From: Synechococcus sp. AG-679-A04
Lineage (GTDB): Bacteria; Cyanobacteriota; Cyanobacteriia; PCC-6307; Cyanobiaceae
Length of the DNA: 48,282 nucleotides
Assembly: GCA_003210775.1 (NCBI GenBank)
Contig: QCUI01000008.1
Coordinates: forward strand, 1-48,282
Direction of reading: 5' to 3'
The notes beneath the pieces were generated by a model. That model was not told the DNA's origin, searched no databases, and saw nothing but the letters and a program-made list of their open reading frames with translations. The stretch's first letter is position 1; the number at the start of each line of letters is the position of its first letter. Positions 31,231-48,282 of the stretch are shown here, piece after piece. Position numbers and translations under genes: made by a program.

Positions 31231-31282
31231 CAGTCGTCTGCACTTCAGCGCATGACCAGCAGACCATGCGCAAAATCCCCAA

Positions 31283-31752: not shown

Positions 31753-31769
31753 AAAGCTAGAAGTGACTG

Positions 31770-32987: not shown

Positions 32988-33101
32988 TGACGCGGGCTGG
33001 GTAGAGCTGTACGGGATGAAGTGATTGCAATTAAGAAATCATTCGTTGATTACAAGCACCAGCAGCTCATGCACCCAAACATGAATTAACGAATGGATTA
33101 G

Positions 33102-33278: not shown

Positions 33279-33332
33279 ACTCCACCCGTTCAGCGGAATT
33301 CGATGGCGTTGCGACCAAGATTCAGCAGCAAC

Positions 33333-34445
33333 TCACTTAAGCCGTAGCTCCGGACGCACCCAGGAACCATCGAAATAGGATGTTTTGGGATTGTAAATTC
33401 GGAGGGTTGCATTCCACCCTGGATAGATGCCCAGGTAATTATCCTGACTGGAATAACCACCAAAATTCAGAACAACCTCGCCTTGATCATTCCTTTTCGC
33501 AAAAGCACTGTTGATGTTGTAATTTTCGCCTACTGGAAAGCCATCCTTGTCGTAAACAGTTAAAGACCAAAACGCATTACTTCCATTGGGCACATCTTTA
33601 AGAGTGAGAGTTTGCTGCTTCTCCGACGACGGCGTATAGAAGAGATAGACCGCTCCTTCTTTCGGGAGACCACCAATGCCAACGGCAACACCCATATTGT
33701 TTTGCTCTGGAGAAATTTCGCCCTTTCGACCAAACAAATTCTCAGACTTCACACCCTGCTGATCGCGCTGTTGATTATAAGCAGCACGCATTGCAAGCAT
33801 TTCATCTTGATTCCAGCGATTAGGCTGAACAAATTCACCAGGACTTGCCTGTGCAACTTTTAATCCCTTCTGCAACTCCCGAGCTTTCGCGAGGTCGTCA
33901 GGATCACTCATATTGACACCGGTGCGGTACGCCACCAAGGCATATCGGCTGCCAACGTTGTCCTTCGTCAACTCATATTCACCAGGAGTCTTGTAAACAG
34001 AGGTGTACCCCTGATCATCCACAACCATGGCGCTTTGATAGCGACCACCCGTTTGTGGAAGCGTGATCATCGCTGGATTGTTGAGATCCAGAATCAAGAA
34101 TGAATACAGCGTGTCGAAATTAATGCGAATGACGGTTCGATCCTTGGGGTCAGCCGCTCTGCTGTCATTCCAAAGCACACCCATACCACCAGTGCAGGTT
34201 TCTTTGGCAATCTTGGCGATGTACTTGGCAAACACAGTCTGTGTTTCAGCAGCTGCGAAGGTTGCTTTGGTCACGGGAGCAACAGCATCACTCTGAACAA
34301 CAACAGCAGGCTCAGGGCAAGAATTCGCCACGGCCATGGATTGCGACTTTGCTGAAGGATCCGAAACAACAGAGAGCAACCCAACGCTCAGGGCTGACAC
34401 AAGCCCTGCACAACGCACAGGAAAGCCGCCAAAGTTTTGAGCCAT
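33333..34445 (-). CDS. DUF1254/DUF1214-like secreted protein
   Basis: About 370 residues. The start MAQNFGGFPVRCAGLVSALS gives a signal-like N-terminus ending around SAKSQS. The first half contains DRTVIRINFDTLYSFLILDL and PQTGGRYQSAMVVDDQGYTS, matching DUF1254. The second half has LPKEGAVYLFYTPSSEKQQT, SNAFWSLTVYDKDGFPVGEN and NYLGIYPGWNATLRIYNPK, matching DUF1214. This family of exported proteins is of unknown biochemical role. It is transcribed against the recombinases and is probably passenger cargo or interrupted host DNA. Confidence 0.78.
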   Translation of the reverse strand: MAQNFGGFPVRCAGLVSALSVGLLSVVSDPSAKSQSMAVANSCPEPAVVVQSDAVAPVTKATFAAAETQTVFAKYIAKIAKETCTGGMGVLWNDSRAADPKDRTVIRINFDTLYSFLILDLNNPAMITLPQTGGRYQSAMVVDDQGYTSVYKTPGEYELTKDNVGSRYALVAYRTGVNMSDPDDLAKARELQKGLKVAQASPGEFVQPNRWNQDEMLAMRAAYNQQRDQQGVKSENLFGRKGEISPEQNNMGVAVGIGGLPKEGAVYLFYTPSSEKQQTLTLKDVPNGSNAFWSLTVYDKDGFPVGENYNINSAFAKRNDQGEVVLNFGGYSSQDNYLGIYPGWNATLRIYNPKTSYFDGSWVRPELRLK

Positions 34446-34508
34446 GAACCTATTTATTCCTAATGACTGCCTAGCCAGATCCCAGCGTGATACGACGTTC
34501 ATGGCTCA

Positions 34509-34679
34509 ATGGGGCCACTCCATTCGCCCTTTCAGGATCTTTGGATCTCTGCGATCAAGCCTGAAATCGAAGGGCACTGGATGAATGCCCTTGCCGACAG
34601 CGCACCAAAGGGACCGGAGATGATCCGATCGGTTAGCGCAGCTGTTCTTATGAGTCGCATCAATGGATCGATCCGATAG
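34509..34679 (+). CDS. small hypothetical protein (56 aa)
   Basis: MGPLHSPFQDLWISAIKPEI, then EGHWMNALADSAPKGPEMIR and SVSAAVLMSRINGSIR. Protein-like composition with two helices. It is divergent from the DUF1254-like gene. No domain recognised. Too short for most gene finders. Confidence 0.42.
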   Translation: MGPLHSPFQDLWISAIKPEIEGHWMNALADSAPKGPEMIRSVSAAVLMSRINGSIR

Positions 34680-34855
34680 CAACGGATTAGGGGACGTTGA
34701 AGCCCAGCATCAGCGCAAAAGTCTCAGCGGGTTCCAGATAAAGCTGTATCAAGAGGGGGCTTGCTTCATTATTTCTTCCATGAACGTTCGGGGAGCATTG
34801 GCACAACTGCGATTTGATTGCCCTTAGTTTCGGCATCCGACGTTCTCCGCAGCTG

Positions 34856-35017
34856 ATGTCTCCCATCGACCTATCCAGTCTCAAGTGGGGAGAAGACGGA
34901 GAGTTATCCCACAATGACAACCTCACTCTGGTGGAGAGGCTGATGAGGGTTGAGGAGGAATCCAAACGATCTGACCTCAATTCCAGTCCGATCCCGCAAC
35001 GCGAATCCGCGGACTAG
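34856..35017 (+). CDS. small acidic hypothetical protein (53 aa)
   Basis: From ATG 34856: MSPIDLSSLKWGEDGELSHN followed by DNLTLVERLMRVEEESKRSD and a polar tail. Charged and helical, protein-like. The frame is open to 34814, but this start is more natural. Family not known. Confidence 0.42.
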   Translation: MSPIDLSSLKWGEDGELSHNDNLTLVERLMRVEEESKRSDLNSSPIPQRESAD

Positions 35018-35079
35018 GTATCCGCACCACAACTGGCCCAGGCAAATTTCTAGAACATCAGAAATAGATCATTTCTGAT

Positions 35080-35227
35080 GGAAATTCACACTGCCCACGC
35101 AGAACCAATTGGCGAATTCATCCATGAAGGTCGTCACACCCCCTTTCGAGCGCTGGCTTGCCCAATAGGACCTAGCCACCGACTGACAATCTGGAAAGAA
35201 CCACTCAAAAGAGCTGATCAAGGCTGA
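35080..35227 (+). pseudogene. frameshifted copy of the MEIHTAHA small gene
   Basis: Begins MEIHTAH like the gene at 29953, with the same upstream TTTCTAGAAC, but two bases are missing after the seventh codon, so the frame stops early. Past the gap the other frame continues as EPIGEF... and FRALACPIGPS, matching the intact copy. The two-base loss sits at 35100/35101. Confidence 0.45.
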
Positions 35228-35245
35228 AATCCAGCCCCTCAGTCA

Positions 35246-35506
35246 TCACTGGTCTGTTGGAGTCAGCTTCCAAAGCGCCCCCTCAGGAACCTCCGGATGA
35301 GACGTCATGTCTTTGGGTTGCTCAAAAGCAACACGCCATTCCGCTACCCGTGAGGGGGCATGGTCAGGATGTTCAATCCGGATACCACCAAGTGTTGACG
35401 GAGCTCCGAACCACCCGCCTCTCCAATGGGGGATCCCATTTTGTCCACCACTGAAGAACACCCAACATCTCGCTAACGATTGGTGGGCTGAAGACGTCGC
35501 TGCCAT
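35246..35506 (-). CDS. hypothetical protein (86 aa)
   Basis: From ATG 35506, MAATSSAHQSLARCWVFFSG to a C-terminus VAEWRVAFEQPKDMTSHPEV ending WKLTPTDQ. The start codon overlaps the stop of the upstream gene (TGATG), supporting a translationally coupled pair. The aromatic, Pro-rich middle is unusual. Function unknown. Confidence 0.45.
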   Translation of the reverse strand: MAATSSAHQSLARCWVFFSGGQNGIPHWRGGWFGAPSTLGGIRIEHPDHAPSRVAEWRVAFEQPKDMTSHPEVPEGALWKLTPTDQ

Positions 35507-35784
35507 CAGCTTGCCTCCGCAAGAATCTTCCAAGAAATATCCTCCATCAACACGGACGGCTGGCCTGCAATGGCAGCTGCTAAATCAGCTGGTTCAGACA
35601 GGTCAACCAAAATTTCTCCATTCCTGCAAAGGAATTGGAGATCCGATTGATCCATATGAATGACCCGATATGCAGCGGAGTGTTCTCCTGATAAAAGCTT
35701 GGCTTTTGCTCTTGCCTCTAAAAGGCTGACGTCATCCGCAATGCTCACCCAACCCTTTTCTGAAAGCCGTTGAATACAAAACAT
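35506..35784 (-). CDS. hypothetical protein (92 aa)
   Basis: From ATG 35784: MFCIQRLSEKGWVSIADDVS, then LEARAKAKLLSGEHSAAYRV and VIHMDQSDLQFLCRNGEILV. Alternating beta and alpha segments suggest a small soluble domain. It ends by overlapping the next gene's start. No family recognised. Confidence 0.55.
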   Translation of the reverse strand: MFCIQRLSEKGWVSIADDVSLLEARAKAKLLSGEHSAAYRVIHMDQSDLQFLCRNGEILVDLSEPADLAAAIAGQPSVLMEDISWKILAEAS

Positions 35785-35927
35785 TTGCTGTATCAATGCG
35801 ATGAATTAACTCTCGACCGCTCAATCCCTTTTTGGTTGCAACTAACAGGTGAGCTTCGGGATCATTGCTCCTTCACGGCTTCAACCTTCAATACGGGTCG
35901 ATAGGCGACAGCTTCCACAAAGCGCCT

Positions 35928-36137
35928 TTAAGCGGCGCCTTTGGACCGACCATCAAAACCGCTGGCTGGTGGATGAGTTGACTGCCACATCAGCCCCTTA
36001 GGCGCACAGTTCGCTAGAGCGGTCAGAACGATCAGATCAGAGCCCAAGACAGGCTTCTCTTGCCTCCTGAGCCATACGGTTTTCTTCGACAGGACAAACG
36101 ACACCTGACAATGCAACAGCAGCGACTCACAATTCAT
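35928..36137 (-). CDS. possible hypothetical protein (69 aa)
   Basis: An open frame with MNCESLLLHCQVSFVLSKKT and LGSDLIVLTALANCAPKGLM. The composition is fair, but no domain or coupling supports it. It is divergent from the gene at 36155, with 17 bp between the starts, which is short for two promoters. Confidence 0.28.
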   Translation of the reverse strand: MNCESLLLHCQVSFVLSKKTVWLRRQEKPVLGSDLIVLTALANCAPKGLMWQSTHPPASGFDGRSKGAA

Positions 36138-36154
36138 AGGTGAATCAAAATTGA

Positions 36155-36433
36155 ATGAGCCCCACCTACCTGATCACCACTCCCGTTGAAGTCGATGTGC
36201 TCTGGAAAGTGAACGCAGATAGCGAAGAAGAGGCGATTAAGAACCTCTCAGAACACTGCACAGAGCTGAAGAAAACACCCGACGCAATCACAGTGGGCTC
36301 CATCACAAAAGGCATCTCATACCGAGGGCTCCCAGACGAAACGCAGAGCATTCAACAAATGTCGATCCGATTCGCTTCGGAGAATCCTCATCGATGCGTT
36401 GTCTTCGACGAGATTGACGAAGAAGAAACCTGA
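36155..36433 (+). CDS. small acidic conserved-type protein (92 aa)
   Basis: MSPTYLITTPVEVDVLWKVN followed by ADSEEEAIKNLSEHCTELKK; the end is very acidic (VVFDEIDEEET). The N-terminus reads beta-alpha (a small ferredoxin-like or DpnD-like fold), typical of phage-island small proteins, but no function can be assigned. Confidence 0.6.
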   Translation: MSPTYLITTPVEVDVLWKVNADSEEEAIKNLSEHCTELKKTPDAITVGSITKGISYRGLPDETQSIQQMSIRFASENPHRCVVFDEIDEEET

Positions 36434-36477
36434 GTGTCCTCGCTGCAGGACAACTCGATCAAACCTGATTGGTTGAA

Positions 36478-36579
36478 TCAATCAACAGTCCAATGAAGAA
36501 ACGCAGCCCCGGCCATGCTTCCAGGCATTGCGGCAGTGGCAGATGCGGTGAGATTCCAATTACGGATCTCAGTAGACAT
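36478..36579 (-). CDS. possible microprotein (33 aa)
   Basis: MSTEIRNWNLTASATAAMPG followed by SMAGAAFLHWTVD. A small, Ala-rich, mildly hydrophobic peptide; the frame continues upstream to ATG 36615. It is in the otherwise empty 36434-36771 stretch. Low confidence because of size. Confidence 0.33.
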   Translation of the reverse strand: MSTEIRNWNLTASATAAMPGSMAGAAFLHWTVD

Positions 36580-36771
36580 TCGACTTTCGATTGAAGTTGC
36601 CACGACCATCGCCATCCAACTGAGCTAGTGGTGACGGGGAAACGCGCCTAGGAAGCGAACACGCAAATCAAGACGCTCGCAGTTAAGGGACACCTGCGTC
36701 GAGCGACCTGCTTCCTGCTCAGACATCCTCTTTACATGCCGTTACAAACCGCTTAACATTCCTACATCGCA

Positions 36772-36876
36772 ATGATCAGCATGTTCGGCACCTCAGACCT
36801 TCTTGTCCTAATCGGCAGTTTCGGAGCTGCATGCTTCGCCTTGAGCCTCTACAAAGCAGCCCGCCCTGCCCACTAA
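36772..36876 (+). CDS. LVL-SF-AC microprotein, copy 2 (34 aa)
   Basis: MISMFGTSDLLVLIGSFGAA followed by CFALSLYKAARPAH. A single hydrophobic helix with a basic tail, sharing LVL-x2-SF-x2-AC-x2-LS-x-YK with copy 1. Predicted membrane peptide. Confidence 0.52.
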   Translation: MISMFGTSDLLVLIGSFGAACFALSLYKAARPAH

Positions 36877-36948
36877 TCAGCTGTATCCGATAACCCCAGG
36901 CCGTCGGAGCGAAAATTCTGTCAGAGTATTTGTACCTATCGACAGCGA

Positions 36949-37044
36949 ATGAATAGCGAAAACGCTCTGGTTCTGACCGTGAGCTTCTTGTGCGCTTGCC
37001 TGATGGTGAGCATCTCTAAGATGTATAGCCCTGCGAAAGATTGA
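36949..37044 (+). CDS. LVL-SF-AC microprotein, copy 3 (31 aa)
   Basis: MNSENALVLTVSFLCACLMV followed by SISKMYSPAKD. Same pattern as copies 1 and 2, 72 bp downstream of copy 2. Upstream GTATTTGTAC matches GTATTTATAC upstream of copy 1 (27004) at a similar distance, suggesting a common promoter element. Confidence 0.52.
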   Translation: MNSENALVLTVSFLCACLMVSISKMYSPAKD

Positions 37045-37458
37045 AAATCTGCACCAAATATTTAATGATTGAAGAAAGCATTCTCCAGACGTCTTCAAAC
37101 AGGTTTCTGTAGGGCTATTCAGGGGTATAAACACGTCCCAGAAGAATTCTGGAAGCCAATTTGACTCGGAAAGAATCAGTCCAATGACCTTTGCCAGCCA
37201 AAGAAATGACTTCCTTGATGAACAGTGTGTTTGCTTCTCTCTTCGTCATCCCAAGACCTCTACTCACTTCGTGTTAATCGAGGCTATACCGGAGATTCAA
37301 GGGGTTGAGGTCAATCCTTATTGATGATGTGCCTTAAGGCGTCTCGACAGGCCTCATAACGCTCTCTCGAAATCAATAAAAGATTCAGGCGCAGGCCTCT
37401 GGTCTCTGAGAGACAGATCGAGACGATGAAAAGTGTCCAGCACTGAAAGAGTGGTGAG
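37045..37458. other. intergenic region before the second attachment-like motif
   Basis: About 415 bp with no confident gene. A short frame at 37185 (MTFASQRNDFLDEQCVCFSL) looks protein-like but appears to lose frame near 37260, so it may be a decayed gene. No tRNA found. Confidence 0.35.
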
Positions 37459-37487
37459 GGCCTTCCAGCCCCCGCGAGTCACTTGGG
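37459..37487 (+). repeat. attachment-site-like motif, copy B
   Basis: CCTTCCAGCCCCCGCGAGTC followed by ACTTG. Same position relative to recombinase 2 as copy A to recombinase 1. Candidate left junction of the second element. Confidence 0.45.
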
Positions 37488-37564
37488 TGATACAGGAGAC
37501 ACAGAGCAGCTATACCTCGGGGAGCATTGCTATCACTAGGTCCTGCTCTGACCTATATGGACCT

Positions 37565-37606
37565 ACGTTGACATCAGAACCCGCTTATGTCAACGTCTTG
37601 TCAACG
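37565..37606. promoter_or_regulatory. inverted/direct repeats before recombinase 2
   Basis: ACGTTGACAT and ATGTCAACGT form a perfect 10-bp inverted repeat with a 12-bp spacer; a third TGTCAACG follows at 37599-37606. They end 17 bp before the gene and could be an operator or recombinase arm sites. Confidence 0.5.
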
Positions 37607-37623
37607 CAAGTCAGAAATGACCC

Positions 37624-38856
37624 ATGCCGAAGACCGTCACCGGTGCACCCTGGGAGCAGGGATTTCGCGCCTCTATCAGAACGGCTGCCGGACTTGAGGG
37701 TTTCACCGTCAGCAACGCAAACAACCGTGGCCGGATCGGAGTCCGATGGCGACCCACTGACGGCAGGAAGCCTCAATCAGTGGTTCTCGACCTGGCCTGG
37801 TCTCAGGACAACACCGCCAAAGCCATCCAGCTGCTGAGCCGTGCGGCAAAGGTGATCGCCCAAGGCAAAACCGACAACCTCAAGGCAGCCGTTGCCATGG
37901 CCAAAGACGGCAGCACCACCATGCGCCGCGAACTGGACTGGCCAGCCGTTGCTGACGGGCTCAGGGACGTGCTGATGAATCACCGGAACGAGATCCGCGC
38001 CACCACCTGGCGGGACAACTACCAGCCCTATGTGGAGGAAGCACTGCGCCTGATCGGGACTGGAGAGGCCTCAGACGGTCACAGCCTCCTGAAGGGCACC
38101 CTGGCCAAATGGTCAGGAATGGCTCCATCCCGAGCGGCCTGCTGCATCGCTCTGCGCAACCTGACCGATCACGCAATCTCGAGATTTGGCGCTGCGAAGT
38201 CTTGGCAGATCACCGGGGTGGACATCAAGGAGCTGCGAGGCAAGCCAGCGAAGAAGCGACGCAAGGCGACTCTCGGCGACAGCGAACTGATATTCCTAAT
38301 TGATGGGATCGCCAGCAGGAACCCTCGCTGGGCGAACGTGCTGCGGATCATGGCCCTGTTCGGCCTGCGCCCGATCGAGTTGCAGCATCTGACTCCCAAC
38401 ACCCGCGAAGACGGAAGCCTTGGCGTCTGGTGCACCTATGAGAAGACGTGCGGCGGGAGCCAGACCCAGCAACGACAGCTGGAGCCCTGCTGGCTACAGG
38501 ACACCGATGGATCAGCGATCAAGTGGAACATCGTTGAGCTCTTCCATGCCGGTCTGCTGGAGCTTCCCTTGGGGATCGATGGTGAACCCCGGAAGCTGGA
38601 TGGCCATTACTGCGAGGTATTCCTGAAGCGCCAGCCCGAGTGGCAGCAGCTGAGGCAAGTCTGCGAAGACCGCGGAGAGTGGCTGCGCACCTATTCGTTC
38701 AGGGACACATTCAGCCTGCGATGCCACCGGCAGAAGATCGAACTAGGCGCAATTTGTGCAGCGATGGGGCACAACATCGAAGCCCACGGCAGGGCTTATC
38801 GCTGGGAGTCAGAGCAAACAACTGCAGCCGCATTTGCAAGCGCCGTTTCTGTCTAA
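37624..38856 (+). CDS. int: tyrosine recombinase/integrase 2
   Basis: A 410-residue tyrosine recombinase. Catalytic residues are conserved as in recombinase 1: Arg in LFGLRPIELQHL, Arg in SFRDTFSLRCHR, His in AAMGHNIEAHG, and Tyr in GRAYRWESEQ. Its first 105 residues (the arm-binding region; MPKTVTGAPWEQGFRASIRT) differ far more from recombinase 1 than the catalytic core does. It is the left-most gene of the mobile module running to the window edge, with genes downstream in the same direction. Confidence 0.9.
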   Translation: MPKTVTGAPWEQGFRASIRTAAGLEGFTVSNANNRGRIGVRWRPTDGRKPQSVVLDLAWSQDNTAKAIQLLSRAAKVIAQGKTDNLKAAVAMAKDGSTTMRRELDWPAVADGLRDVLMNHRNEIRATTWRDNYQPYVEEALRLIGTGEASDGHSLLKGTLAKWSGMAPSRAACCIALRNLTDHAISRFGAAKSWQITGVDIKELRGKPAKKRRKATLGDSELIFLIDGIASRNPRWANVLRIMALFGLRPIELQHLTPNTREDGSLGVWCTYEKTCGGSQTQQRQLEPCWLQDTDGSAIKWNIVELFHAGLLELPLGIDGEPRKLDGHYCEVFLKRQPEWQQLRQVCEDRGEWLRTYSFRDTFSLRCHRQKIELGAICAAMGHNIEAHGRAYRWESEQTTAAAFASAVSV

Positions 38857-39059
38857 CGCGCTAGACATAATCGAGCTGAGTATACCGACGAAACGATATT
38901 ATTATTTCCCGGCCACACCCTCAGACCCCAGTCAGGGCAATGAAAGTGATCCTGATGGTTGCAGACTTGCATCGATCTGTGTAGATTCCTGGGCATTAGA
39001 GACACCGGAGTTCGGCAGTAGCCGCCCGGTGCGGATATTTCCAACCGGATCTATTCGTG

Positions 39060-39386
39060 ATGCAGGTCTTTGACCAAGAGCCCTCTGATTCCCGTTGCTT
39101 TTGTGCCTTGGCACGACGCCGCTACAACCAGCCCAAGCCAGTCTTTGTGACTCATCCAGTCACAGGAATGCGCCATCTGGTGAAAACACCACCCGGAACT
39201 TTTCACCCGGAACGGCTGGTCAAGGCGATGGAATCAGTGAAATCTGGCAAAGATCCAGACGCGGTCATGAAGTTGGTTCGGCCCTTTGGTCTGAATGGAC
39301 CTAATCCGCGTCCTGAGCTTCTGAGCTGCGTCTTCCAGACCATGTTCGCCGTTGGCGGACACTCCAGAACGACGATCACTAGATAA
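39060..39386 (+). CDS. hypothetical protein (108 aa), early mobile-element gene
   Basis: MQVFDQEPSDSRCFCALARR then RYNQPKPVFVTHPVTGMRHL and PERLVKAMESVKSGKDPDAV. Basic and soluble. It lies between the recombinase and the excisionase-like gene, suggesting a directionality or regulatory role, which is inference. ATG 39060 was chosen over GTG 39057. Confidence 0.6.
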   Translation: MQVFDQEPSDSRCFCALARRRYNQPKPVFVTHPVTGMRHLVKTPPGTFHPERLVKAMESVKSGKDPDAVMKLVRPFGLNGPNPRPELLSCVFQTMFAVGGHSRTTITR

Positions 39387-39429
39387 CAGGCAACGGGCAG
39401 TCCAGGTAACCCTTACTGCCCGAACCACC

Positions 39430-39681
39430 ATGACTGCTTCAGTCAGGGAAACGCTGAGCACTGTGCAAATGGCGCAGGCGCTCGGTATTTCCCAAAAGCT
39501 TCTTTTGAAGCTTCGAAAGATCAACGCCAGTCCGTTCAAGGCTGGCGAGCACTATCGATTCCAAGGAATGACCACTGCCGCCGCAGTGCGTTGGTTCCCG
39601 GAGCCGACTGATCTTGCATTCAGCGAGTTCACTCGCATCGATCCTTCTGCCATCGAAACGATGGATGGGGGTGAGGAATGA
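39430..39681 (+). CDS. excisionase-like HTH protein
   Basis: 83 residues. ETLSTVQMAQALGISQKLLL followed by KLRKINASPFKAGEHYRFQG is a MerR/Xis-like winged helix-turn-helix, with the helix pair TVQMAQALGISQKLLLKL and a wing containing HYRF. The C-terminus is acidic. Position right after the integrase fits a recombination directionality factor. The stop overlaps the next start (ATGA), beginning a coupled operon. Confidence 0.65.
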   Translation: MTASVRETLSTVQMAQALGISQKLLLKLRKINASPFKAGEHYRFQGMTTAAAVRWFPEPTDLAFSEFTRIDPSAIETMDGGEE

Positions 39682-40094
39682 CCAGCACCCTCAAAGGGTT
39701 TGGCGATGAGCCACAACCCACAAAGGTCACCACTCGTTCAGGTCTCACAAAACATCTTGTGCAGAACCACATCTGCAAGGTTGATGACCTGAGCAAATGG
39801 CCTGATTCCGGTCAGCGGGGAATGCCCGCCTGGTGGATGCCAGACGAGAGGGAACTTCAAGCCTGGTGGTGGTGCATTGGCAACCCGCAAAAGGTTGGCG
39901 ATCAGATCGAATTCGTCTCCATCCGAATGGGCTTCTCCGTTCACTTCGACGCCAACGGCGTGATCGACGGGTTCCTTGGCATCAATGAAGCCCAACAGCA
40001 TTTGTCAGTTGGCAAGTGGCCTGGCGACTGGGACTCTGCCCGGAAGGTCGTGTCAGAAGCACACCCTCTTGAGGCGTGGGAGGTGCAGTCATGA
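39678..40094 (+). CDS. hypothetical protein (138 aa)
   Basis: A 138-residue protein with a Trp-rich middle (GMPAWWMPDERELQAWWWCI) and FVSIRMGFSVHFDANGVIDG. Soluble; no domain recognised. Both ends are coupled by 4-bp ATGA overlaps to neighbours, so it is part of the small-gene operon between the excisionase-like gene and the replication genes. Confidence 0.62.
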   Translation: MTSTLKGFGDEPQPTKVTTRSGLTKHLVQNHICKVDDLSKWPDSGQRGMPAWWMPDERELQAWWWCIGNPQKVGDQIEFVSIRMGFSVHFDANGVIDGFLGINEAQQHLSVGKWPGDWDSARKVVSEAHPLEAWEVQS

Positions 40095-40549
40095 CTGTCA
40101 TCTACAAGGACATGGATGTGGTGATGGTGAACACCGGCTTCGACCGATGGCACCTGGGTGTGATCGAAAGGGACTTTGAACCTGACGATCAATGGATCCG
40201 CGCCACCGCCAAAGACACCCTGCACACCGAAGCGTTTCGAATGCCGGGTTTCAACCCAGACGAGGTGCGACCGGCCACGGCAGACGACATCGCCAACGCA
40301 CCGCAGTTCGCTCGTGATTGGCTTGCCCAAAAGCAACGCCGTCATCAGGAACACCTGCTGGATCTCCGCGATCCACGCGTGCATGTCACGTCCGGTCGCG
40401 GCTGCGCGTCACTGCAACAGGCCGGGATCCGCAGGATGAGCGACGTTGCTCGCTTCACCGACAAGGAACTGCTGGCGCTGAAAGGCATCGGCCAGGCCAC
40501 TGTGTCCCGCTGGCGGAAGAAAGCCGCACAGATGGAGGCGCAGTCATGA
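40091..40549 (+). CDS. small protein with C-terminal helix-hairpin-helix
   Basis: A 152-residue protein from ATG 40091. The N-terminal half is beta-like (TVIYKDMDVVMVNTGFDRWH). The end, ASLQQAGIRRMSDVARFTDK followed by ELLALKGIGQATVSRWRKKA, is a helix-hairpin-helix DNA-binding motif of the RuvA/RNA-polymerase-alpha-CTD kind (LKGIGxxT). It probably binds DNA non-specifically. ATGA overlaps on both sides. Confidence 0.65.
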   Translation: MTVIYKDMDVVMVNTGFDRWHLGVIERDFEPDDQWIRATAKDTLHTEAFRMPGFNPDEVRPATADDIANAPQFARDWLAQKQRRHQEHLLDLRDPRVHVTSGRGCASLQQAGIRRMSDVARFTDKELLALKGIGQATVSRWRKKAAQMEAQS

Positions 40550-40839
40550 CGGATTGGACCCCTCGGACCCGAGAGCAAGCCGCTCTGCGCTTGGCCAACC
40601 CTGACTGGAAGATGGCCAGCGGCCTCCACGTTGCCCTGGTCATGGGGCAAATAGCCCTGCCCGGCAAAACCGTTGCCGAGCTTGAGGCTGCACTTGAGGC
40701 CATGACGCCCAGGCGTCGAGGAACCGTGATCGAGCTGATCCGGCGGTGGAATCAGCTGATGACTGATGCCAAGGCTCTAGAGGCATCCATCGACTCCGAA
40801 CTGGACCAGCAAACCGAAATCAGAGAGACAAGCTCATGA
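40546..40839 (+). CDS. hypothetical protein (97 aa)
   Basis: A 97-residue soluble protein: MTDWTPRTREQAALRLANPD, VALVMGQIALPGKTVAELEA and RRRGTVIELIRRWNQLMTDA. Helical and basic in the middle, acidic at the end. Coupled by ATGA overlaps to the genes before and after. Function unknown. Confidence 0.58.
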   Translation: MTDWTPRTREQAALRLANPDWKMASGLHVALVMGQIALPGKTVAELEAALEAMTPRRRGTVIELIRRWNQLMTDAKALEASIDSELDQQTEIRETSS

Positions 40840-41018
40840 GCACCACTTCACAAATCCAGTTCTGGCTGATTGATGACGGCACCAACGACATCTTCATCCT
40901 GCTGAACGAGGGCCATCGCTACGGATCGAAGGAAGCAGCCATTGCCTGCATGCACCAAGGGGAAAGCCTCTGGCAGATCACCGGCGCCGCCATCCCAGAA
41001 GAGGAGGCGCAGTCATGA
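40836..41018 (+). CDS. hypothetical protein (60 aa)
   Basis: A 60-residue protein: MSTTSQIQFWLIDDGTNDIF, IACMHQGESLWQITGAAIPE and an acidic end EEEAQS. Short, beta-alpha like. The stop overlaps the next start. Phage-type small early protein. Confidence 0.55.
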   Translation: MSTTSQIQFWLIDDGTNDIFILLNEGHRYGSKEAAIACMHQGESLWQITGAAIPEEEAQS

Positions 41019-41239
41019 CGACCATGACCGACCGCAAGGCCTTGATCACCGAAGGCATGCGCGATCTGCTGATGCTGCACCGGCAACTGCAGCCAGACAC
41101 TCCTGACTGGGAACGGCGAGAAGCACTGATCTATGCGTTTTCGATGCTGACCCCCAAGGGGAAGCGAGGTGAATCAGATCGCATTGCTTCGATGGTTGGC
41201 CTGCTGGATGTCTTCGCTCAGGAGAGCATCCATGAGTGA
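41015..41239 (+). CDS. hypothetical protein (74 aa)
   Basis: 74 residues: MTTMTDRKALITEGMRDLLM, LQPDTPDWERREALIYAFSM and KRGESDRIASMVGLLDVFAQ. Mostly helical. The last gene of the ATGA-coupled group; a 175-bp regulatory gap follows before the ribbon-helix-helix gene. Confidence 0.55.
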   Translation: MTTMTDRKALITEGMRDLLMLHRQLQPDTPDWERREALIYAFSMLTPKGKRGESDRIASMVGLLDVFAQESIHE

Positions 41240-41264
41240 TCAAACCCTTTGATCCATTCCACCA

Positions 41265-41300
41265 ATTTGTGCACATAGATCCACTCAGATCAGCACAAAT
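41265..41300. promoter_or_regulatory. inverted repeat, candidate operator
   Basis: ATTTGTGC and GCACAAAT, 20 bp apart, in the gap before the ribbon-helix-helix gene. The downstream protein is a good candidate to bind it (autoregulation). Confidence 0.42.
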
Positions 41301-41413
41301 CACAGGAGGTAAATACAGGTCGCATTATTGATTTAATCGACCTTTTTCCCTACTTTTCTTTTGTACTTTCACCGGCTACGTTCATCGTGTTCGCCTTAAG
41401 TTCACCCGACATC

Positions 41414-41590
41414 ATGCAAGCCTCCATCATCGAATTTGAAGGGACGGCAGCAGAGCAATTCACTATTCGCGTCCCCGCTGGCACTAGAGCCAAGCTCGAA
41501 GAATTCCGCCTAAAGACCGGTCTTCGCTCGCGGAATCAGGCCATTTATAAACTCCTGGCCGCGGGATTAGTCGAGACCGAACTCGCCTGA
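41414..41590 (+). CDS. ribbon-helix-helix regulator (58 aa)
   Basis: From ATG 41414, MQASIIEFEGTAAEQFTIRV then PAGTRAKLEEFRLKTGLRSR and NQAIYKLLAAGLVETELA. A beta-strand (QFTIRVP) followed by two helices with SRNQAIYKLLAAGL is the Arc/MetJ-type ribbon-helix-helix fold, which dimerises and binds operators. It probably controls the replication genes that follow. The upstream in-frame ATG at 41387 is less likely. Confidence 0.7.
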   Translation: MQASIIEFEGTAAEQFTIRVPAGTRAKLEEFRLKTGLRSRNQAIYKLLAAGLVETELA

Positions 41591-41716
41591 ATGGTGCCCA
41601 CAAGGGGATTCAGCCAAGCCCGGAAAAGCACCGGCTGGATCCCTGCCTCTCTGCCCGAACCACCGGAACAGAACGATTTACCCCTTGAGGAAAACCTTGA
41701 AGCACGCTCAATCTAA
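41591..41716 (+). CDS. small hypothetical protein (41 aa)
   Basis: Begins directly after the ribbon-helix-helix stop: MVPTRGFSQARKSTGWIPAS followed by LPEPPEQNDLPLEENLEARS. The end overlaps the helicase start by 20 bp in another frame, suggesting translational coupling. Polar, Pro/Glu-rich. Confidence 0.42.
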   Translation: MVPTRGFSQARKSTGWIPASLPEPPEQNDLPLEENLEARSI

Positions 41717-43190
41717 GGGGCGCGTTTGCAAACGCGCCAAAGCGTCAACAAATAAGGAGCGTCGGCAACACGCTTCTGACGCCGCTCACATCGAAGCAAT
41801 CCAGCTCCAGCGGTTAACTGAGGCCACCCAGGCCCAGGGCCCGGCCGACTCGAACGAGTTCCATCCGACCCCTGAACAACAGGATGCGATCGATGGGATT
41901 TCTGCCTGGGTCAACTCCACCACAGACAGTATTTTTTGCACCTTCACCGGTCCGGCCGGAAGTGGCAAATCAACAATCACCAGGCTGATCCGTCGAGCAT
42001 TGATCGCCGCTGGCCGCACTGTCGGCCTGGCCGCTCCAACCCATAAAGCCTGCGGTGTTCTGGCTCAGGCCTGCGGGGTCTCCAAACGAGAGACAGCCAC
42101 ATTCGCCAGCCTGCTCGCGCTGCGTGAAAAGAAGACTCGCGATCAGATCACCTTTGTTCGGGACTATCGCCGCAAGCCGCGGATCGATGAAGCCGAAATC
42201 TGGATCTGTGATGAGGCCTCCATGCTCGAGCCCGAGCTGCTGGAGATGCTCGAACAGGAAGCTGATTTTTGGACGCGGTTCATCTTTGTCGGCGACCCGG
42301 CCCAGTTGCCGCCGGTCGATCACGGCAAGGTTTCACCAGCGCTGAAATGCTCGCCAGCCTTTCACCTTTCCAAGGTGATGCGCCACGACGGTGCGGTGCT
42401 CGATAACGCCACCGCGATCCGTGAAACCACCGGCAGGAACTACCGAGTTCCCTTCACCGCCACCGTGATCGGCGATGGGTCTGCCATCCACACCTATGAC
42501 TCGAAACGGGCCTGGCAAAAGGCAATCCTCGAGTTTGCTGCCGATCACCACGACGCCAACGATCCCGACGCTTTCCGCGTGCTCACCTTCCGACGAGAGG
42601 AAGCCGCGAAAATCAACACGGCCATCCGTCGCCATGTTCGAGGCCCGAACGCCGATCCCTATCTGAAGGGCGAGCGACTGATCACCATCGAAGCGGTCAG
42701 CGATCCCAACGATCAGAACGGTCTGCCCATCTATGGCTCCAGCCGTGAGCTGGTCATTCAGGAGTGCTCAAAGGGCGAGCTACTTCACTCCAGCTGCGCT
42801 GATGGCAAGCCCTACCGCTGCTGGCAGCTGATCACCCTCGCCGATGGCCATGAGGAAGCACCGCAATATCTGCGCGTGATCGATCCCACCCATGAGGGAA
42901 AGCTGGCGGTCGCAATGTCCATGCTTCGCCGTGAAGCGCTGGAAAAGCCCAAAGGTGAGCAGGGTGCATGGGATGGGTTTTGGGATCTGAAAAACCAGTT
43001 CGCCGTGCTCCAGCCGCACTGGGCCATGACCGTTCACAAGTCACAGGGCAGCCAGTTTCGGCACGTCTTCATCGGTCCTGATCTCGACCATGTGCCGGGT
43101 CCGAAAAACCTCACCCGCCATCTCTGGTACACGGCATTCACCCGTGCACAGCAGGCCGTTCACGTCATCCGCGATCAGGAGGCGAGCTGA
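41697..43190 (+). CDS. SF1B helicase, Dda/RecD2-like
   Basis: A 497-residue 5'-3' type DNA helicase. Motif I FTGPAGSGKST (about 84-94), motif II ICDEASMLEPELL, motif III FVGDPAQLPPV, motif V WAMTVHKSQGSQF and motif VI WYTAFTRAQQAVHV are all present, so it should be active. Phage T4 Dda and related enzymes help replication start and move past obstacles. TTG 41697 lies 6 bp after GAGG; TTG 41685 is an alternative. The basic N-terminus (KGRVCKRAKAS) may aid DNA binding. It overlaps the primase gene start by 1 bp. Confidence 0.85.
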   Translation: MKHAQSKGRVCKRAKASTNKERRQHASDAAHIEAIQLQRLTEATQAQGPADSNEFHPTPEQQDAIDGISAWVNSTTDSIFCTFTGPAGSGKSTITRLIRRALIAAGRTVGLAAPTHKACGVLAQACGVSKRETATFASLLALREKKTRDQITFVRDYRRKPRIDEAEIWICDEASMLEPELLEMLEQEADFWTRFIFVGDPAQLPPVDHGKVSPALKCSPAFHLSKVMRHDGAVLDNATAIRETTGRNYRVPFTATVIGDGSAIHTYDSKRAWQKAILEFAADHHDANDPDAFRVLTFRREEAAKINTAIRRHVRGPNADPYLKGERLITIEAVSDPNDQNGLPIYGSSRELVIQECSKGELLHSSCADGKPYRCWQLITLADGHEEAPQYLRVIDPTHEGKLAVAMSMLRREALEKPKGEQGAWDGFWDLKNQFAVLQPHWAMTVHKSQGSQFRHVFIGPDLDHVPGPKNLTRHLWYTAFTRAQQAVHVIRDQEAS

Positions 43191-45517
43191 TGCGCCCTGA
43201 TTGGGATGCAGTGCAGGAACACCTCGAATATCTGGGCCGGGATCCTGAGGATCAGCCAGTCATTTTCACGGCATGGGCAAAAGGCTTCGGGACTCACTTC
43301 ACCAAAAACGAGTCCCCCATCGCTTCAGACGTTGAGAGCCTTTTAGCCAAACGCCCTTATTGCTCTCTGGGTGTGATCGTCAATCCAGGCGGCACCAAAA
43401 AAGCTCAGATCACTGAGGCCGTTGCACTCTTCACCGAAGACGACAGCGGCGCCTCCCTGGAGCAGCAGATGGTGTCGTGGCGTGGAGTCATGCCAGAACC
43501 GAGCCTTTCGGTTTTCACTGGCAACAAGAGCATCCACCATTACTGGCCACTGCAGGAGCCAATCACCCCCGAGCAGTTCACCGTTCTCCAGAGGCGTCTC
43601 GCTGCAGTCATGCAAGCCGCCCACCCAGGCGGTGATGCTGACGGTTCACTTGATGATCCCTGCCAAGTCATGCGGATCGCCGGTGCCATTCACCCGAAGA
43701 CCGGCAACAAGGCAGAGATTCGACGGAAACGCACTGAACGCTTTTCGGAGCAAGAGCTGACCGCTGCGTTGGAAGCCGCGGAAAAAGCCTTCGCTATCAC
43801 TCCCAAAACTTCCTCTGCTCCCGATCGCCGCAATCGTGTTGCCACTGCTCCCCATGGCACCGGCACGCATTACAAGAACCTCACTGCTGCCCAACGGCAC
43901 AGTGTTGTGATCGATGCTCTGAGGCATTGCCCCGAGCGTGGTTCCCAGGGTGGCGGCGGTTACCCCATCGCACAAAGGATCCTGGCTGCCTTGGTGCATG
44001 AATTCGGCAGTGAGGTTGCCTGCGCTCTGGCTGCACAGGCGGACTGGTCACAGGACAGCGATTGGGAGATTGACAAGGTTGCAGCCTCTCTTGAAGCCGA
44101 TCCCCCTGAAGCAGGCAAGCGCAGCAAAATCTGGACCGTTTTCACCATCGCGGCAGAGGAACCCGCCGATCCTCAAAACCCATGGATCTGCCCGTGGCAA
44201 GCCATTGAGACAGTGGCCATCGAACCCATGCCGGTTCCTGCAGTAGCCAATGGCGAACTGCCGGGAGACGTTGCACTAATTGAGCGCTGGGGCTCGGGCT
44301 GGACCGTCGGAGACAACGGCACCAAACAGCGCACCTCACTGTCAGCAGGTGATGCCTATGAAGTGCTCGGCCGGGAATTGCCCGCAGGCTTCCTTCGCTG
44401 GAACAACGTCACTCGATTGTGCGAAGCCAGTGGCAAGCCCATCACAGAGCCAGACATTGAGCGGCTCTATGTGAAAGCCCAGCAGGCCGGATGGCGGGTC
44501 AATAAACAAGCAACCATCGATGCGATCTATTCGCTCGCGCGGCTCGATGTCTATGACCCCATTCAGGACTACCTCGAAGTCGTGGCCGCATCCACTGAAG
44601 TGCAGCCCGTCGACATCAACACACTCAGCACCACTTACCTCGACACCACGGAACCGCTATTCGACGAGTTCCTGAAGATCGCGTTGATCGGTGCTGTGAA
44701 ACGTCGGTTTGAACCCGGCTGCAAGTTCGACACCGTGACCGTGCTCGACGGCGATGGAGGGATCTACAAATCAGAGTTCTGGATTGTGCTGGCCTCCCCT
44801 GATTGGCACAGCAGCAGTGACGCTGAATCAGACAAGGACTTCCTTTTGATCCTCCATGGTGCATGGCTCTATGAGCAGGCCGAACTGGATTACATCACCA
44901 ACAGGAAGCAGGTAGGGCAGCTGAAAAACCTGATCACCACCCGCCGTGATGATCTCCGAGCACCTTTCGGAAAAGGCGTGGAAAAACAAGATCGGGCCGG
45001 AACCATGGTCGGCACCGTCAACGGTCCATTCCTTCGCGGTGACCCTGCATTGCGCCGCAGGTTCCTTGTCATCCACTGCCCCCACAATTTCAACGCTGGC
45101 GAACGGATCGACATCGACAAGGTGCGCCGTGATCGCGATCGCATCTGGAAAGCCGCGGTCTTGGCTTACCGCGCAGGAGAACCTTGCTTCCTTGATCAAC
45201 GCAAGGCGGCAGCCGCTAGTGCGCTCAATCTGGAGACTGCTGAAGATGAGCACCCATGGGCTCGCTCCATTCAGCAATGGTTATCTCAGCCCATCAATCA
45301 ACAGGGACCGCATCACTCTGATGCCATACTCCGTGGCGCGGGAATCATTGCATTAGATCGACCACCTACACGGACAGAGCAAAGCGAACTTCCGAAGGCA
45401 ATTGAACAAATAGGGGGCTGGGTAAAGGATCGAGAACCCACACGGCACAACGGCGAAAAGGCTCGTTTCTGGCGCAAGGCGAACGCCCCAAACAGTGTCC
45501 CAACCCCCCAGCCATAG
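43190..45517 (+). CDS. primase-polymerase / VapE-like replication protein
   Basis: A 775-residue fusion. Residues about 1-190 resemble an archaeo-eukaryotic prim-pol: ALFTEDDSGAS (acidic metal site, 83-85), GNKSIHHYWPL (His) and DPCQVMRIAGAIHPKTG. A middle linker follows (residues 240-480). Residues about 490-735 look like a VapE/D5-type helicase: DTVTVLDGDGGIYKSEFW (P-loop region), WLYEQAELD (Walker B-like) and RGDPALRRRFLVIHC (sensor/Arg finger). The P-loop is GDGGIYKS (521-528), with Tyr526 replacing the usual Gly. Replication initiation role inferred. The stop lies inside the repeat cluster. Confidence 0.8.
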   Translation: MRPDWDAVQEHLEYLGRDPEDQPVIFTAWAKGFGTHFTKNESPIASDVESLLAKRPYCSLGVIVNPGGTKKAQITEAVALFTEDDSGASLEQQMVSWRGVMPEPSLSVFTGNKSIHHYWPLQEPITPEQFTVLQRRLAAVMQAAHPGGDADGSLDDPCQVMRIAGAIHPKTGNKAEIRRKRTERFSEQELTAALEAAEKAFAITPKTSSAPDRRNRVATAPHGTGTHYKNLTAAQRHSVVIDALRHCPERGSQGGGGYPIAQRILAALVHEFGSEVACALAAQADWSQDSDWEIDKVAASLEADPPEAGKRSKIWTVFTIAAEEPADPQNPWICPWQAIETVAIEPMPVPAVANGELPGDVALIERWGSGWTVGDNGTKQRTSLSAGDAYEVLGRELPAGFLRWNNVTRLCEASGKPITEPDIERLYVKAQQAGWRVNKQATIDAIYSLARLDVYDPIQDYLEVVAASTEVQPVDINTLSTTYLDTTEPLFDEFLKIALIGAVKRRFEPGCKFDTVTVLDGDGGIYKSEFWIVLASPDWHSSSDAESDKDFLLILHGAWLYEQAELDYITNRKQVGQLKNLITTRRDDLRAPFGKGVEKQDRAGTMVGTVNGPFLRGDPALRRRFLVIHCPHNFNAGERIDIDKVRRDRDRIWKAAVLAYRAGEPCFLDQRKAAAASALNLETAEDEHPWARSIQQWLSQPINQQGPHHSDAILRGAGIIALDRPPTRTEQSELPKAIEQIGGWVKDREPTRHNGEKARFWRKANAPNSVPTPQP

Positions 45518-45776
45518 GTTGGGACATTTAGGGGGGGGGGATGGGACATTTCTGCCCTTTTGAGCCCAGGGGGTAGGGACATTTCCTAGGGGGTTGGGAC
45601 AAAAGGTTGGGACACCTCAATCGACTGCACCACAATCCCTCTCGGCAAAGTGTCCCAACCTCCCAACCTAAAAACAGAAATTATATTTTTTGTCTTATTT
45701 AGGCTGTTTAAGGGCTATATGGGCAGGAAATACAGAGTTGTCTGAAAATCGCAAAAAGGGTTGAGACATTGGGACA
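45496..45776. repeat. GGGACA iteron cluster, candidate replication origin
   Basis: Direct GGGACA copies start at 45521, 45543, 45576, 45596, 45609 and 45771, most within GTTGGGACA or GGGACATTT; inverse TGTCCC lies at 45496 and 45651. TGTCCCAAC (45496-45504) and GTTGGGACA (45518-45526) also form a 9-bp hairpin over the primase stop. An A/T-rich stretch at about 45669-45710 could be the unwinding element. A ten-G run is at 45531-45540. Alternative: packaging (pac/cos) or TerS-binding site, since terS follows. Confidence 0.65.
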
Positions 45777-45806
45777 TCACCACCCTTGACTCGATATTGT
45801 GGACGC

Positions 45807-46493
45807 ATGGGAATTGAGACACTTCTCGGACACGCGACTGATGAACAGCTCAAAAAGCTGCCAAGTCGTGTTCGATCACCTGAACGGGTAAAACAACACT
45901 TAGATGCCTTCGCTCTGCATTTGAAAGGGGTCTCATATCGTGGGATTCAAACTCACTTTGGGTGGAAATCTCTGAGCACTGCAGAGAACTCAGTTCGTCG
46001 CGGGGAGATGCTCGCAAAAGAATTGAACCTCGACAGTGAAAAGATCAGATTGAAACTTGCAGCCTTCTTTGATGAAATCCTCGACATCTCTCTGAATCAG
46101 ATTCGCGATCAGGTGAAGGAAGGTCAGCTGACCCTGATCACCGACAGCGACGGAAACCAGACGATCACCAAACGTCGTGGCGTGGACACCCGCCTGCTCG
46201 GGGAAGCCGGTCGAGGGGCGATCCGATTCGCGCAGTTCTGCGGGCTGATGGATTCAGACAAGTCCACCTCCACTGGCGGGGACGTGAGCACGAACGTGGT
46301 TTTCGTGAATGCGACCGACGCGAGCGAATGGGACGCAAAGACCGTGGATGTCAATGCAATGTCAACAGACATAGAAAGACCTGCGCAGATCCCTGCTGAC
46401 TCTGGGATGAGTCATTCCTTAAGGGCGGATGACTCGGGTTCTGAACCTGCCAAATCAGCTGATTCAAAGCCGGCCGTTATCGAGAGGATCTGA
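45807..46493 (+). CDS. terS: phage terminase small subunit-like
   Basis: About 228 residues. The N-terminal HTH is HLKGVSYRGIQTHFGWKSLS followed by TAENSVRRG; then a helical oligomerisation region (LDSEKIRLKLAAFFDEILDI) and an acidic, disordered tail. This is the layout of small terminase subunits, which bind the packaging site and load the motor. Directly precedes terL with a 1-bp overlap. ATG 45807 chosen over TTG 45786. Confidence 0.65.
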   Translation: MGIETLLGHATDEQLKKLPSRVRSPERVKQHLDAFALHLKGVSYRGIQTHFGWKSLSTAENSVRRGEMLAKELNLDSEKIRLKLAAFFDEILDISLNQIRDQVKEGQLTLITDSDGNQTITKRRGVDTRLLGEAGRGAIRFAQFCGLMDSDKSTSTGGDVSTNVVFVNATDASEWDAKTVDVNAMSTDIERPAQIPADSGMSHSLRADDSGSEPAKSADSKPAVIERI

Positions 46494-47920
46494 TGACTTC
46501 ATCTGCACCACAGACAATCCGCCCCACGGAGATGCAGGCCACGATGCAGCGGGTGCCGATCGATCATGACTTGATCGCGTGCGGTGGCCGTGGCTCAGGC
46601 AAATCCTTCGGGGGTGAGCTGGTCGTGGCCAGGGACAGCACTGTGCTCAAAGAGCGGTTCAACTGTTTGATCGTCAGGCGCAGTTATGCAGGCCTGCAGG
46701 AACTGAGCAACAGCCTCAGCCGCACGCTGAGCGCTACCTATGGCCAGGGGTTGTCATTCAACAAATCGGACTGGACGCTGGCCTGCCCCAACGGCGCAAG
46801 GTTCGAGCTGGCATACCTAGATCCCAGTCGACCACAGGCAATGCTCAGACAGCAGGGCCGGTCCCGAACAACGATCTGGGCTGACGAGGCTGGTCAATAC
46901 AGCGACCCCGACATGCTCGATCAACTGCGGGCGACATTGCGTGCACCGGAGGGAACACCGACGAGATTCATCCTGACGGCTAACCCCGGACAGGCTGGCC
47001 ACAGCTGGATTCGGCAGCGATGGGTGCAACCTGCTGGGTTTCCATCACCAGGGCAACCGGTGCGGTTCTATTGCGAGGACACGGCTAGCGCGACGGTTTA
47101 TCTCGGCAGCAATATCGGGAACAACCCGCATCTGAACTTCGACGAGACGCGTAGGCAGATCGAGATTGCTGCTGGTGGTGATCCAGAACTGCTGCGTGCC
47201 TGGCTTGAGGGCAGCTTCGAGGGTGATGTCACCGGGAGCTTCTTTGGTGATGCGATGAGTCGCCGGCGCAACCTGCTGGAAGTGAATGGTGGTGATCGGC
47301 CTGAGATCCCTGCAGGGTCACGGTTGCTGGTGAGCTTCGACTGGGGGATTGCTGCACCGAGCTGCGGAACGCTGTTCATCACCAATCACCCGCTGTTGCC
47401 GAAGGGCAGCCTGTTCGCGATTGATGAGTGCTATCTGGCGAAGGCGACTAGGGCTGGTGAGCCCGATTGGAATGCAGGGCTGGGTGCGAGCAATCTGCAG
47501 CAGGCACAGATCCTTCAGGAATGGATCAACCGTTGGGGACTGGAGCCACAGGACTTGAGCTGGATCATGGATGACGCGTGCTGGAACCGTATGGGCAGTG
47601 CGCTGACGATTGGCGATGAGTTCCGGAAGGGAGGCATCCCGTTCAAAAGGGCTGGCAAGAGTCAGATGACGGAGGAAGCAGGACTGGCGAGGTTGCGCAC
47701 GATGTTGTGGGCGACTGACCGTGATGAGAGCCAGCCATGGGTGAAAGCGAGCCGAAGGTGCAGGGCGTTTTGGGAACTGACGCCACTGTTGGCTAGGGAT
47801 ACCAAGAAACGAGAGCTGCTGGATCCGACAGCGATCACGCATTCGATTGATACGTGGCGCTATGCGGTGAACTATTGCCAGAAGCCTTATGCGGTGGGCC
47901 GTGGCCCGAGGGTGTGGTGA
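46493..47920 (+). CDS. terL: phage terminase large subunit
   Basis: A 475-residue packaging motor with ATPase and nuclease. Walker A GGRGSGKSFGGE (31-42), Walker B TTIWADEAGQY (residues 126-136), coupling motif FILTANPGQ and the nuclease domain with LVSFDWGIAAP and WIMDDACWNR (acidic metal ligands). Full length, no frame breaks. It cuts concatemers and drives DNA into a capsid. The capsid would have to come from the element's unseen right part or from a helper phage. Confidence 0.9.
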   Translation: MTSSAPQTIRPTEMQATMQRVPIDHDLIACGGRGSGKSFGGELVVARDSTVLKERFNCLIVRRSYAGLQELSNSLSRTLSATYGQGLSFNKSDWTLACPNGARFELAYLDPSRPQAMLRQQGRSRTTIWADEAGQYSDPDMLDQLRATLRAPEGTPTRFILTANPGQAGHSWIRQRWVQPAGFPSPGQPVRFYCEDTASATVYLGSNIGNNPHLNFDETRRQIEIAAGGDPELLRAWLEGSFEGDVTGSFFGDAMSRRRNLLEVNGGDRPEIPAGSRLLVSFDWGIAAPSCGTLFITNHPLLPKGSLFAIDECYLAKATRAGEPDWNAGLGASNLQQAQILQEWINRWGLEPQDLSWIMDDACWNRMGSALTIGDEFRKGGIPFKRAGKSQMTEEAGLARLRTMLWATDRDESQPWVKASRRCRAFWELTPLLARDTKKRELLDPTAITHSIDTWRYAVNYCQKPYAVGRGPRVW

Positions 47921-48267
47921 TGGACGTTGTTGTTAAGGGCGAGAAGGTTATTGCGGGCGATTGCGTGCTGCTGAACTGTCGCGACAGTGCTGGACTGTTG
48001 CGTGTTCAGGATGTGGACGGGTGTCAGATCAGGCTTGACGGGGAGGTGAAGAGTGTTGAGGGCGAATGGTGCCAAGTGCTGGTGAAGTGTGAGGTGTTGG
48101 GAAGGAGAGATGGGGCGTATTTGGTGAAAACGAGGATGCGTGATGTGGAGCTGACCAGTGAGGTGCACGAGTGGCGGAAGGTAAATGCGAGGGCTATTGA
48201 TCGAGCGAGAAAGACTGGAACTGATGAATGTGAGTTTTGGGCACCGTTAGGTGAGAGCAGTTTTTAG
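47920..48267 (+). CDS. hypothetical protein (115 aa) after terL
   Basis: From ATG 47920 (TGATG overlap with the terL stop): MDVVVKGEKVIAGDCVLLNC, VDGCQIRLDGEVKSVEGEWC and a charged C-terminal helix ending FWAPLGESSF. Beta-rich then helical. It is not a portal protein, which usually follows terL in phages; its small size is a point in favour of a satellite-type layout. Function unknown. Confidence 0.6.
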   Translation: MDVVVKGEKVIAGDCVLLNCRDSAGLLRVQDVDGCQIRLDGEVKSVEGEWCQVLVKCEVLGRRDGAYLVKTRMRDVELTSEVHEWRKVNARAIDRARKTGTDECEFWAPLGESSF

Positions 48268-48282
48268 GGCTACCCAAACGGG

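Follow-up and report, generated by a model that had tools for sequence, protein, structure and literature searches.

A probable satellite-like integrative element with its own terminase at the ssrA gene of a marine Synechococcus

The window analysed here is the whole of contig QCUI01000008.1 (C8; 48282 positions) from Synechococcus sp. AG-679-A04, whose draft genome (G000) comprises 2.28 Mb in 107 contigs and is 74% complete. The right-hand part of this contig, from 37459 to 48282, holds a gene module that probably belongs to an integrative satellite-like element, here called E2, which would occupy a site at the 3′ end of ssrA (the transfer-messenger RNA, or tmRNA, gene), bring its own packaging motor, need the head of another phage and stand stacked against an older element, E1. 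What points to this reading in the DNA is the gene set, the attachment (att) cores derived from ssrA, arm repeats that agree between the probable ends, a relative whose site is empty, two relatives with defined ends in which no head genes were recognised, and purifying selection on the large terminase subunit (TerL).

The module had been picked out in a sequence-only reading, and its genes were borne out with their open reading frames (ORFs) as placed there: a tyrosine integrase (Int), an Xis-like protein, a ribbon-helix-helix (RHH) regulator, a Dda-like helicase, a VapE-type primase-helicase, iterons, and the small (TerS) and large terminase subunits. Gene identities come from profile scans of ORF translations against Pfam and PHROGs, with 11 of the 14 module ORFs run against both (all except orf98, orf60 and orf74). 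Profiles identify Int, the RHH regulator, the helicase, the primase-helicase and TerL; TerS is a candidate by its position and a weak structure model, and Xis by its co-occurrence with integrases. The extent of the module had to be revised, as it appears to form only the left part of an element whose site is ssrA. Since the window is a whole contig ending at 48282, the right end of the element lies outside it, as had been foreseen.

The ssrA attachment site and the ends of the element

A 24-base motif occurs in the window at 31620 and 37462, and there is one further copy in the genome, at position 14745 of contig C11. Both window copies match the 3′ end of ssrA, and no match arose in 100 shuffles. 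The copy at 37462..37485 forms the left att core of E2, and the diverged copy at 31620..31643 forms the att core of E1; the motif as searched reads on the plus strand, while ssrA and both cores read on the minus strand. Among genomes of the genus, 14 of 31 contain the motif, and at six of ten motif loci scanned with Rfam a whole cyanobacterial tmRNA gene was found (319-329 bits), the remaining four being partial copies. The intact ssrA gene of the genome lies on C11. A tRNA gene as the site of this element was rejected, there being no tRNA gene in the window.

An unoccupied ssrA site was found in a relative, the single-contig genome G001. There, the left flank of the window (to 31573) and the ssrA side of C11 (from 14735) align 36 bp apart with no insert between them, and C8 and C11 are therefore read as the two sides of one ssrA locus. 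Because the two contigs flank one locus and their arm repeats agree, C11:1-14745 probably forms the right end of the element. The second attachment copy that had been expected to the right is accordingly placed at C11:14745, at the intact ssrA, and the element would thus have a copy of the ssrA 3′ end at its integrase end and intact ssrA at the opposite end. The link between C8 and C11 depends on synteny and not on a closed contig.

The arm-type repeats of the E2 integrase, (A/T)TGTCAACG, occur three times in 41 bp at 37566..37606. Over the whole window this motif is not above chance (10 found against 10.5 expected, one mismatch allowed), and what is notable is its clustering and its match to C11, where four exact copies lie within 67 bp at the ssrA end; none of 200 shuffles reached four copies in the 20-kb stretch. 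The repeats of the integrase end and the ssrA end, compared by eye across genomes, agree in three of four (the own genome, G002 and G009).

The left boundary of E2 is set by its older neighbour. G011 aligns colinearly with the window over 31188-37441 at 84-90%, and this homology ends just before the core at 37462, which indicates that the module starts at that core, beside E1. The E1 remnant (31644..37441) has lost its other genes and keeps an intact 405-aa integrase ORF (31770..32987; this and all genes given below are on the plus strand), 79% identical to that of E2. Each integrase is preceded by repeats of its own, TTGTCACG for E1 and (A/T)TGTCAACG for E2.

Packaging, replication and integration genes

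TerL (46493..47920) is intact, matches PHROG 2 at E 1.9e-26 and passes the Pfam cut-off for Terminase_3. Its residues at the places expected for the ATPase and nuclease centres are invariant in all six aligned relatives. For the three pairs among the window, G002 and G246, dN/dS of terL is 0.081, 0.090 and 0.088 at dS 0.6-1.3 (out-of-frame integrase rows from G011 were left out of these results), and TerL is under purifying selection. An identity of 94% is reached in the single-cell genome of Synechococcus sp. AG-673-A03, and 18 of 400 family genomes, spanning 5 of 59 genera, contain a match at E up to 1e-40; many terL fragments are also present in relatives. Among 50,697 phage records the best-ranked TerL match is 27.9% identical, and all 467 matching records lie below 60%. 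A TerL-profile scan of IMG/VR gave at least 26 loci, all partial and 23-28% identical, with none extending past residue 239 among the matches listed. Single-sequence IMG/VR scans with TerL, the integrase, the helicase and the TerL of G012 gave no relatives; such scans work from a few short peptides and reach close relatives only. The TerL profile found no match by sequence against solved structures.

The TerS candidate (45786..46493, with a possible ATG at 45807) stands directly before terL in all six aligned elements, which occupy four kinds of site. Its structure model has a mean pLDDT of 54, and small terminases are listed for it only at E >1 or Z <5, level with or below unrelated proteins. 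After terL comes orf137 (47854..48267), as it does in relatives; the low-confidence model of this small protein (mean pLDDT 56) has its best likeness in SH3-like ribosomal proteins, at E 0.007, which is not significant at 0.001.

Replication would be served by a Dda-like superfamily 1 (SF1) helicase (41685..43190; PHROG 325, E 1.6e-79), which also drew the only matches of a PADLOC scan, all of them to helicases, and by a primase-helicase (43190..45517) with a VapE-like domain (E 6e-46). A candidate origin, made up of clustered GGTTGGGACA iterons (45496..45776), is situated between the primase and TerS. Allowing at most one mismatch on both strands, 8 of the 12 copies in the window fall within 45496-45768; 3.05 copies would be expected in the whole window, and none of 100 shuffles reached 12. 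Over half its length, the primase-helicase shares 35% identity with its counterpart in the cyanosiphovirus S-LBS1. An IMG/VR scan gave 36 primase relatives, of which six marine-looking contigs were compared (28-31% identical) and matched the query set of the element through their primase genes alone. This kinship hints at a siphovirus-type partner. An S-LBS1-type phage was rejected as the identity of the element, because primase regions alone in the query set match S-LBS1.

The E2 integrase (37624..38856; 410 aa, intact) matches PHROG 1 at E 1e-5, has no Pfam match and found none by sequence against solved structures. It carries the motifs GLRPIEL, YSFRDTF and MGHNIEAHGRAY at residues 247, 357 and 381, which are presumably catalytic. 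Its relatives are widespread (279 of 400 family genomes, 46 of 59 genera). From relatives at 43-86% identity, ten integrases (47-86% identical) were examined, leaving out for example G290, G150, G196 and G273; an ssrA-like core lies within about 165 bp in nine of the ten, being absent in G158 and diverged, as judged by eye, in G011. The Xis-like candidate orf109b (39352..39681) adjoins eight of these ten integrases. Other small genes of the module are orf109a (39057..39386), related to a gene next to the G009 integrase; orf138 (39678..40094), with no assigned function; orf157 (40076..40549), with weak helix-hairpin-helix matches under the Pfam cut-offs; orf98, orf60 and orf74 (40546..41239), of which orf98 and orf74 have relatives in other elements; and the RHH regulator (41387..41590), which matches a PHROG repressor at E 7e-6.

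The search for head genes and the weight of the alternatives

The sequence-only reading held that the module lacks portal, head and tail genes and that finding them to the right would make it an ordinary prophage. They were sought there and not found: for C11:1-14745, 20 ORFs are listed, of which 18 were scanned in PHROGs and 2 in Pfam only, and none of them looks like a head, portal or tail gene. The assembly gap between the contigs remains, and for this reason relatives with both ends defined matter for the question. Elements with related TerL lie at tRNA-Thr (G012, G016, G024), tRNA-Arg (contig C2 of the own genome) and tRNA-Val (G246). Two were followed end to end, that of G012 over 14.0 kb from tRNA-Thr to a 43-bp copy of its 3′ end, and that of G246, whose TerL is 85% identical to that of the window and which also has relatives of TerS and the helicase, over 15.7 kb from tRNA-Val to a 45-bp copy. 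With 15 of the 19 listed ORFs scanned in G246 and 15 of 18 in G012, no portal, capsid or tail protein was present among all 24 matching PHROG families of the former or 25 of the 33 of the latter; the named families include terminase, integrase, helicase, primase and nuclease. Across the genus, the portal family PF04860 was found in none of 31 genomes including the own (control 4 of 14), and the capsid family PF05065 was absent from the own genome and seen in one of the 31 as a single partial ORF, in G001 (control 4 of 14, 3 over the cut-off). The satellite reading is in this respect supported in part: the element is integrative, has its own TerL and shows no head genes to its right as far as C11 reaches.

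These results bear directly on the possibility of a temperate phage whose head and tail genes lie inside the unsequenced C8-C11 gap. The size of that gap is not fixed and the primase-helicase has its S-LBS1 kinship, both of which would suit such a phage, while the close relative in G246, whose ends lie 15.7 kb apart and which showed no head gene in the 15 of its 19 ORFs scanned, and the missing PF04860 and PF05065, the own genome being 74% complete, make it improbable. A relic, that is, a former prophage decaying after the loss of its head and tail genes, is about as unlikely. The many terL fragments in relatives and the neighbouring E1, stripped of its other genes, fit decay, and relic terminases of marine Synechococcus have been interpreted as prophage remnants in the accessible part of one study (PMC2784084). 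The genes of the module are nevertheless open and intact, terL evolves at dN/dS 0.08-0.09 at dS 0.6-1.3, and the same integrase-replication-TerS-TerL content is kept at four different sites.

The element could also be a cargo-bearing integrative island for which the terminase is optional and which spreads by vesicles, transformation or generalized transduction instead of by its own packaging. Elements at ssrA with a related integrase and no TerL do exist (G009; G007, ~14 kb), and TerL relatives (E up to 1e-40; 18 of 400 genomes) are far fewer than those of the integrase (279 of 400). This island, too, seems a minor prospect, given the purifying selection on terL and the position of terS directly before it in six elements spread over four kinds of site.

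Several observations weigh against a satellite at ssrA with its own motor. The assembly gap from C8:48282 to C11:1 has no fixed size, and the last 400 bases of the one and the first 2000 of the other share no 12-mer. PHROGs profiles do not identify the TerS candidate as a terminase, and at other loci 2-3 kb separate a TerS relative from TerL, so that the two are not always together; contig C1 of G002 even has a 94% identical TerL with no relative of TerS, the primase or the integrase found nearby. Apart from the primase, the genes of the element gave no relatives on viral contigs, save for the partial TerL matches at 23-28% identity among those listed. The arm repeats of the two ends disagree in G011, which looks composite, and the right end of E1 was looked for and not found. 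Finally, G009 holds a complete 9.4-kb ssrA element of the same integrase type without TerL, which shows that the packaging module can be separated from the ssrA integrase module.

The satellite-like element at ssrA remains the probable explanation, and its life cycle can be outlined from the predicted gene functions. The integrase and the Xis-like protein would excise a circle between the two ssrA 3′-end cores, and the primase-helicase and the Dda-like helicase would copy it from the iteron origin. The putative TerS would then select the DNA of the element, and its own TerL, docking on a foreign portal, would pump this DNA into the empty head of another phage, making the element dependent on a helper. 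The particle would deliver it to a new cell, where it would integrate and, because it carries the ssrA 3′ end, leave ssrA whole.

Known systems, related elements and implications

Phage-inducible chromosomal islands (PICIs) carry an integrase, regulators, a primase with an origin and TerS, have no head of their own and depend on the TerL of a helper. The window element resembles them in all of these components and in that no head of its own was found, and it differs from them, as TerS-only elements, in having its own TerL. Capsid-forming PICIs have their own TerS, TerL, portal and capsid. The element shares with these the two terminase subunits and is unlike them in that no portal or capsid was found, with the C8-C11 gap remaining. 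It falls between the two groups as they are understood here. Capsid-forming PICIs are named in the accessible text of PMC11389934.

Some tycheposons are held to be satellites. Tycheposons are considered here by their descriptions in the available portions of citing papers (PMC10872708; PMC11389934; PMC10803314; PMC10187409), one of which names seven tRNA genes as sites for Prochlorococcus. By these descriptions, the element shares with them a host among the marine picocyanobacteria, a tyrosine recombinase, a small-RNA gene as insertion site and variable cargo. Unlike tycheposons, described at tRNA sites, it lies at ssrA, with related packaging genes at tRNA-Thr, tRNA-Arg and tRNA-Val elsewhere. 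They are the closest group by host and way of life, and the element may work like one; because of its site it is not filed as a tycheposon, a distinction drawn from descriptions. VEIMEs, as named in the text available from PMC10803314, are likewise marine and integrative; they were found in virions, whereas the window element is known from its genes alone. A divergent tyrosine integrase from variable islands of Prochlorococcus and Synechococcus is similarly described in part of PMC10187409, and that element, compared by description, differs in lying near tRNA-Phe or tRNA-Cys and often having a small serine recombinase. The TerL of P-SS2 was grouped by its authors with relic Synechococcus terminases in the passages available (PMC2784084); a P-SS2-type terminase was rejected for the window, since the TerL of P-SS2 is not detectably related to that of the element. 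In a literature search on Synechococcus islands with tmRNA or ssrA, Prochlorococcus satellites with a terminase and two-terminase satellites, which covered subscription journals thinly, the element was not described in any title.

In G016 (2714-2728 kb; L045) and contig C32 of G024 (106-132 kb; L047-L048), tandem stretches are delimited by tRNA-Arg 3′ copies; in three of them, ~40 bp past the tRNA-Arg copy, terL begins from about codon 365 and is followed by orf137. These stretches contain many short genes (ORF cluster n=42) that look like leader peptides, presumably of the Nif11/prochlorosin type. A packaging site in the terL 3′/orf137 stretch, kept by small derivatives, has been considered, and it may also be orf137 itself that persists. 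Two ssrA cores on contig C1 of G027 (264021-272826; L092, L049) enclose an 8.8-kb stretch that encodes another TerL, 26% identical, and a 2,073-aa ORF, and that holds no relative of the window integrase. A family of secreted-looking proteins recurs as cargo in many elements of this kind (L063:8654-9361, L036:16460-17584 and others); neither Pfam nor PHROGs gave a match for its C11 copy.

The probable right end on C11 contains a T7-like RNA polymerase gene broken by a frameshift, together with a 284-aa gene (L063:4860-8583). Relatives of the polymerase occur in 28 of 300 family genomes. At five loci (L225-L229, in G322, G013, G155, G123 and G193), an integrase-like gene, matching PF00589 at all five and passing the cut-off at two, adjoins a T7-like single-subunit RNA polymerase, whose frame runs uninterrupted for 809-816 aa in four of the five; a relative of the 284-aa protein then follows in four of the five. 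This pairing is possibly a separate mobile element. Elsewhere in the window, an IsrR antisense RNA gene (20473-20644; 71.6 bits) is the sole Rfam match at the gathering cut-off, and a dispersed repeat of ~110 bp occurs at 29948-30068 and 35078-35184, with further copies in contig C53 and several related genomes.

A broader and more tentative proposal, possible though by no means the likelier outcome, is that a family of marine Synechococcus satellites has a private motor, with a TerS and TerL lineage unseen in sequenced phages, and no head, and docks on the portals of unrelated cyanophages. Its members would move between tRNA genes and ssrA by swaps of integrase modules, would stack in tandem, and would have shed small derivatives that keep an attachment end, the terL 3′ end with orf137, and cargo, lanthipeptide-precursor-like genes among it.

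In the available part of PMC6157547, prophages are said to be lacking from marine Synechococcus and Prochlorococcus. The genomes of both have highly variable islands despite this. If true, a headless element carrying its own terminase would offer island genes a concrete and testable path into phage particles, and it would raise the question of whether a packaging motor can be functional on the portal of a foreign phage. Excision and integration should be readily testable at the ssrA locus, which offers an empty site, two elements in a stack and arm repeats that agree.

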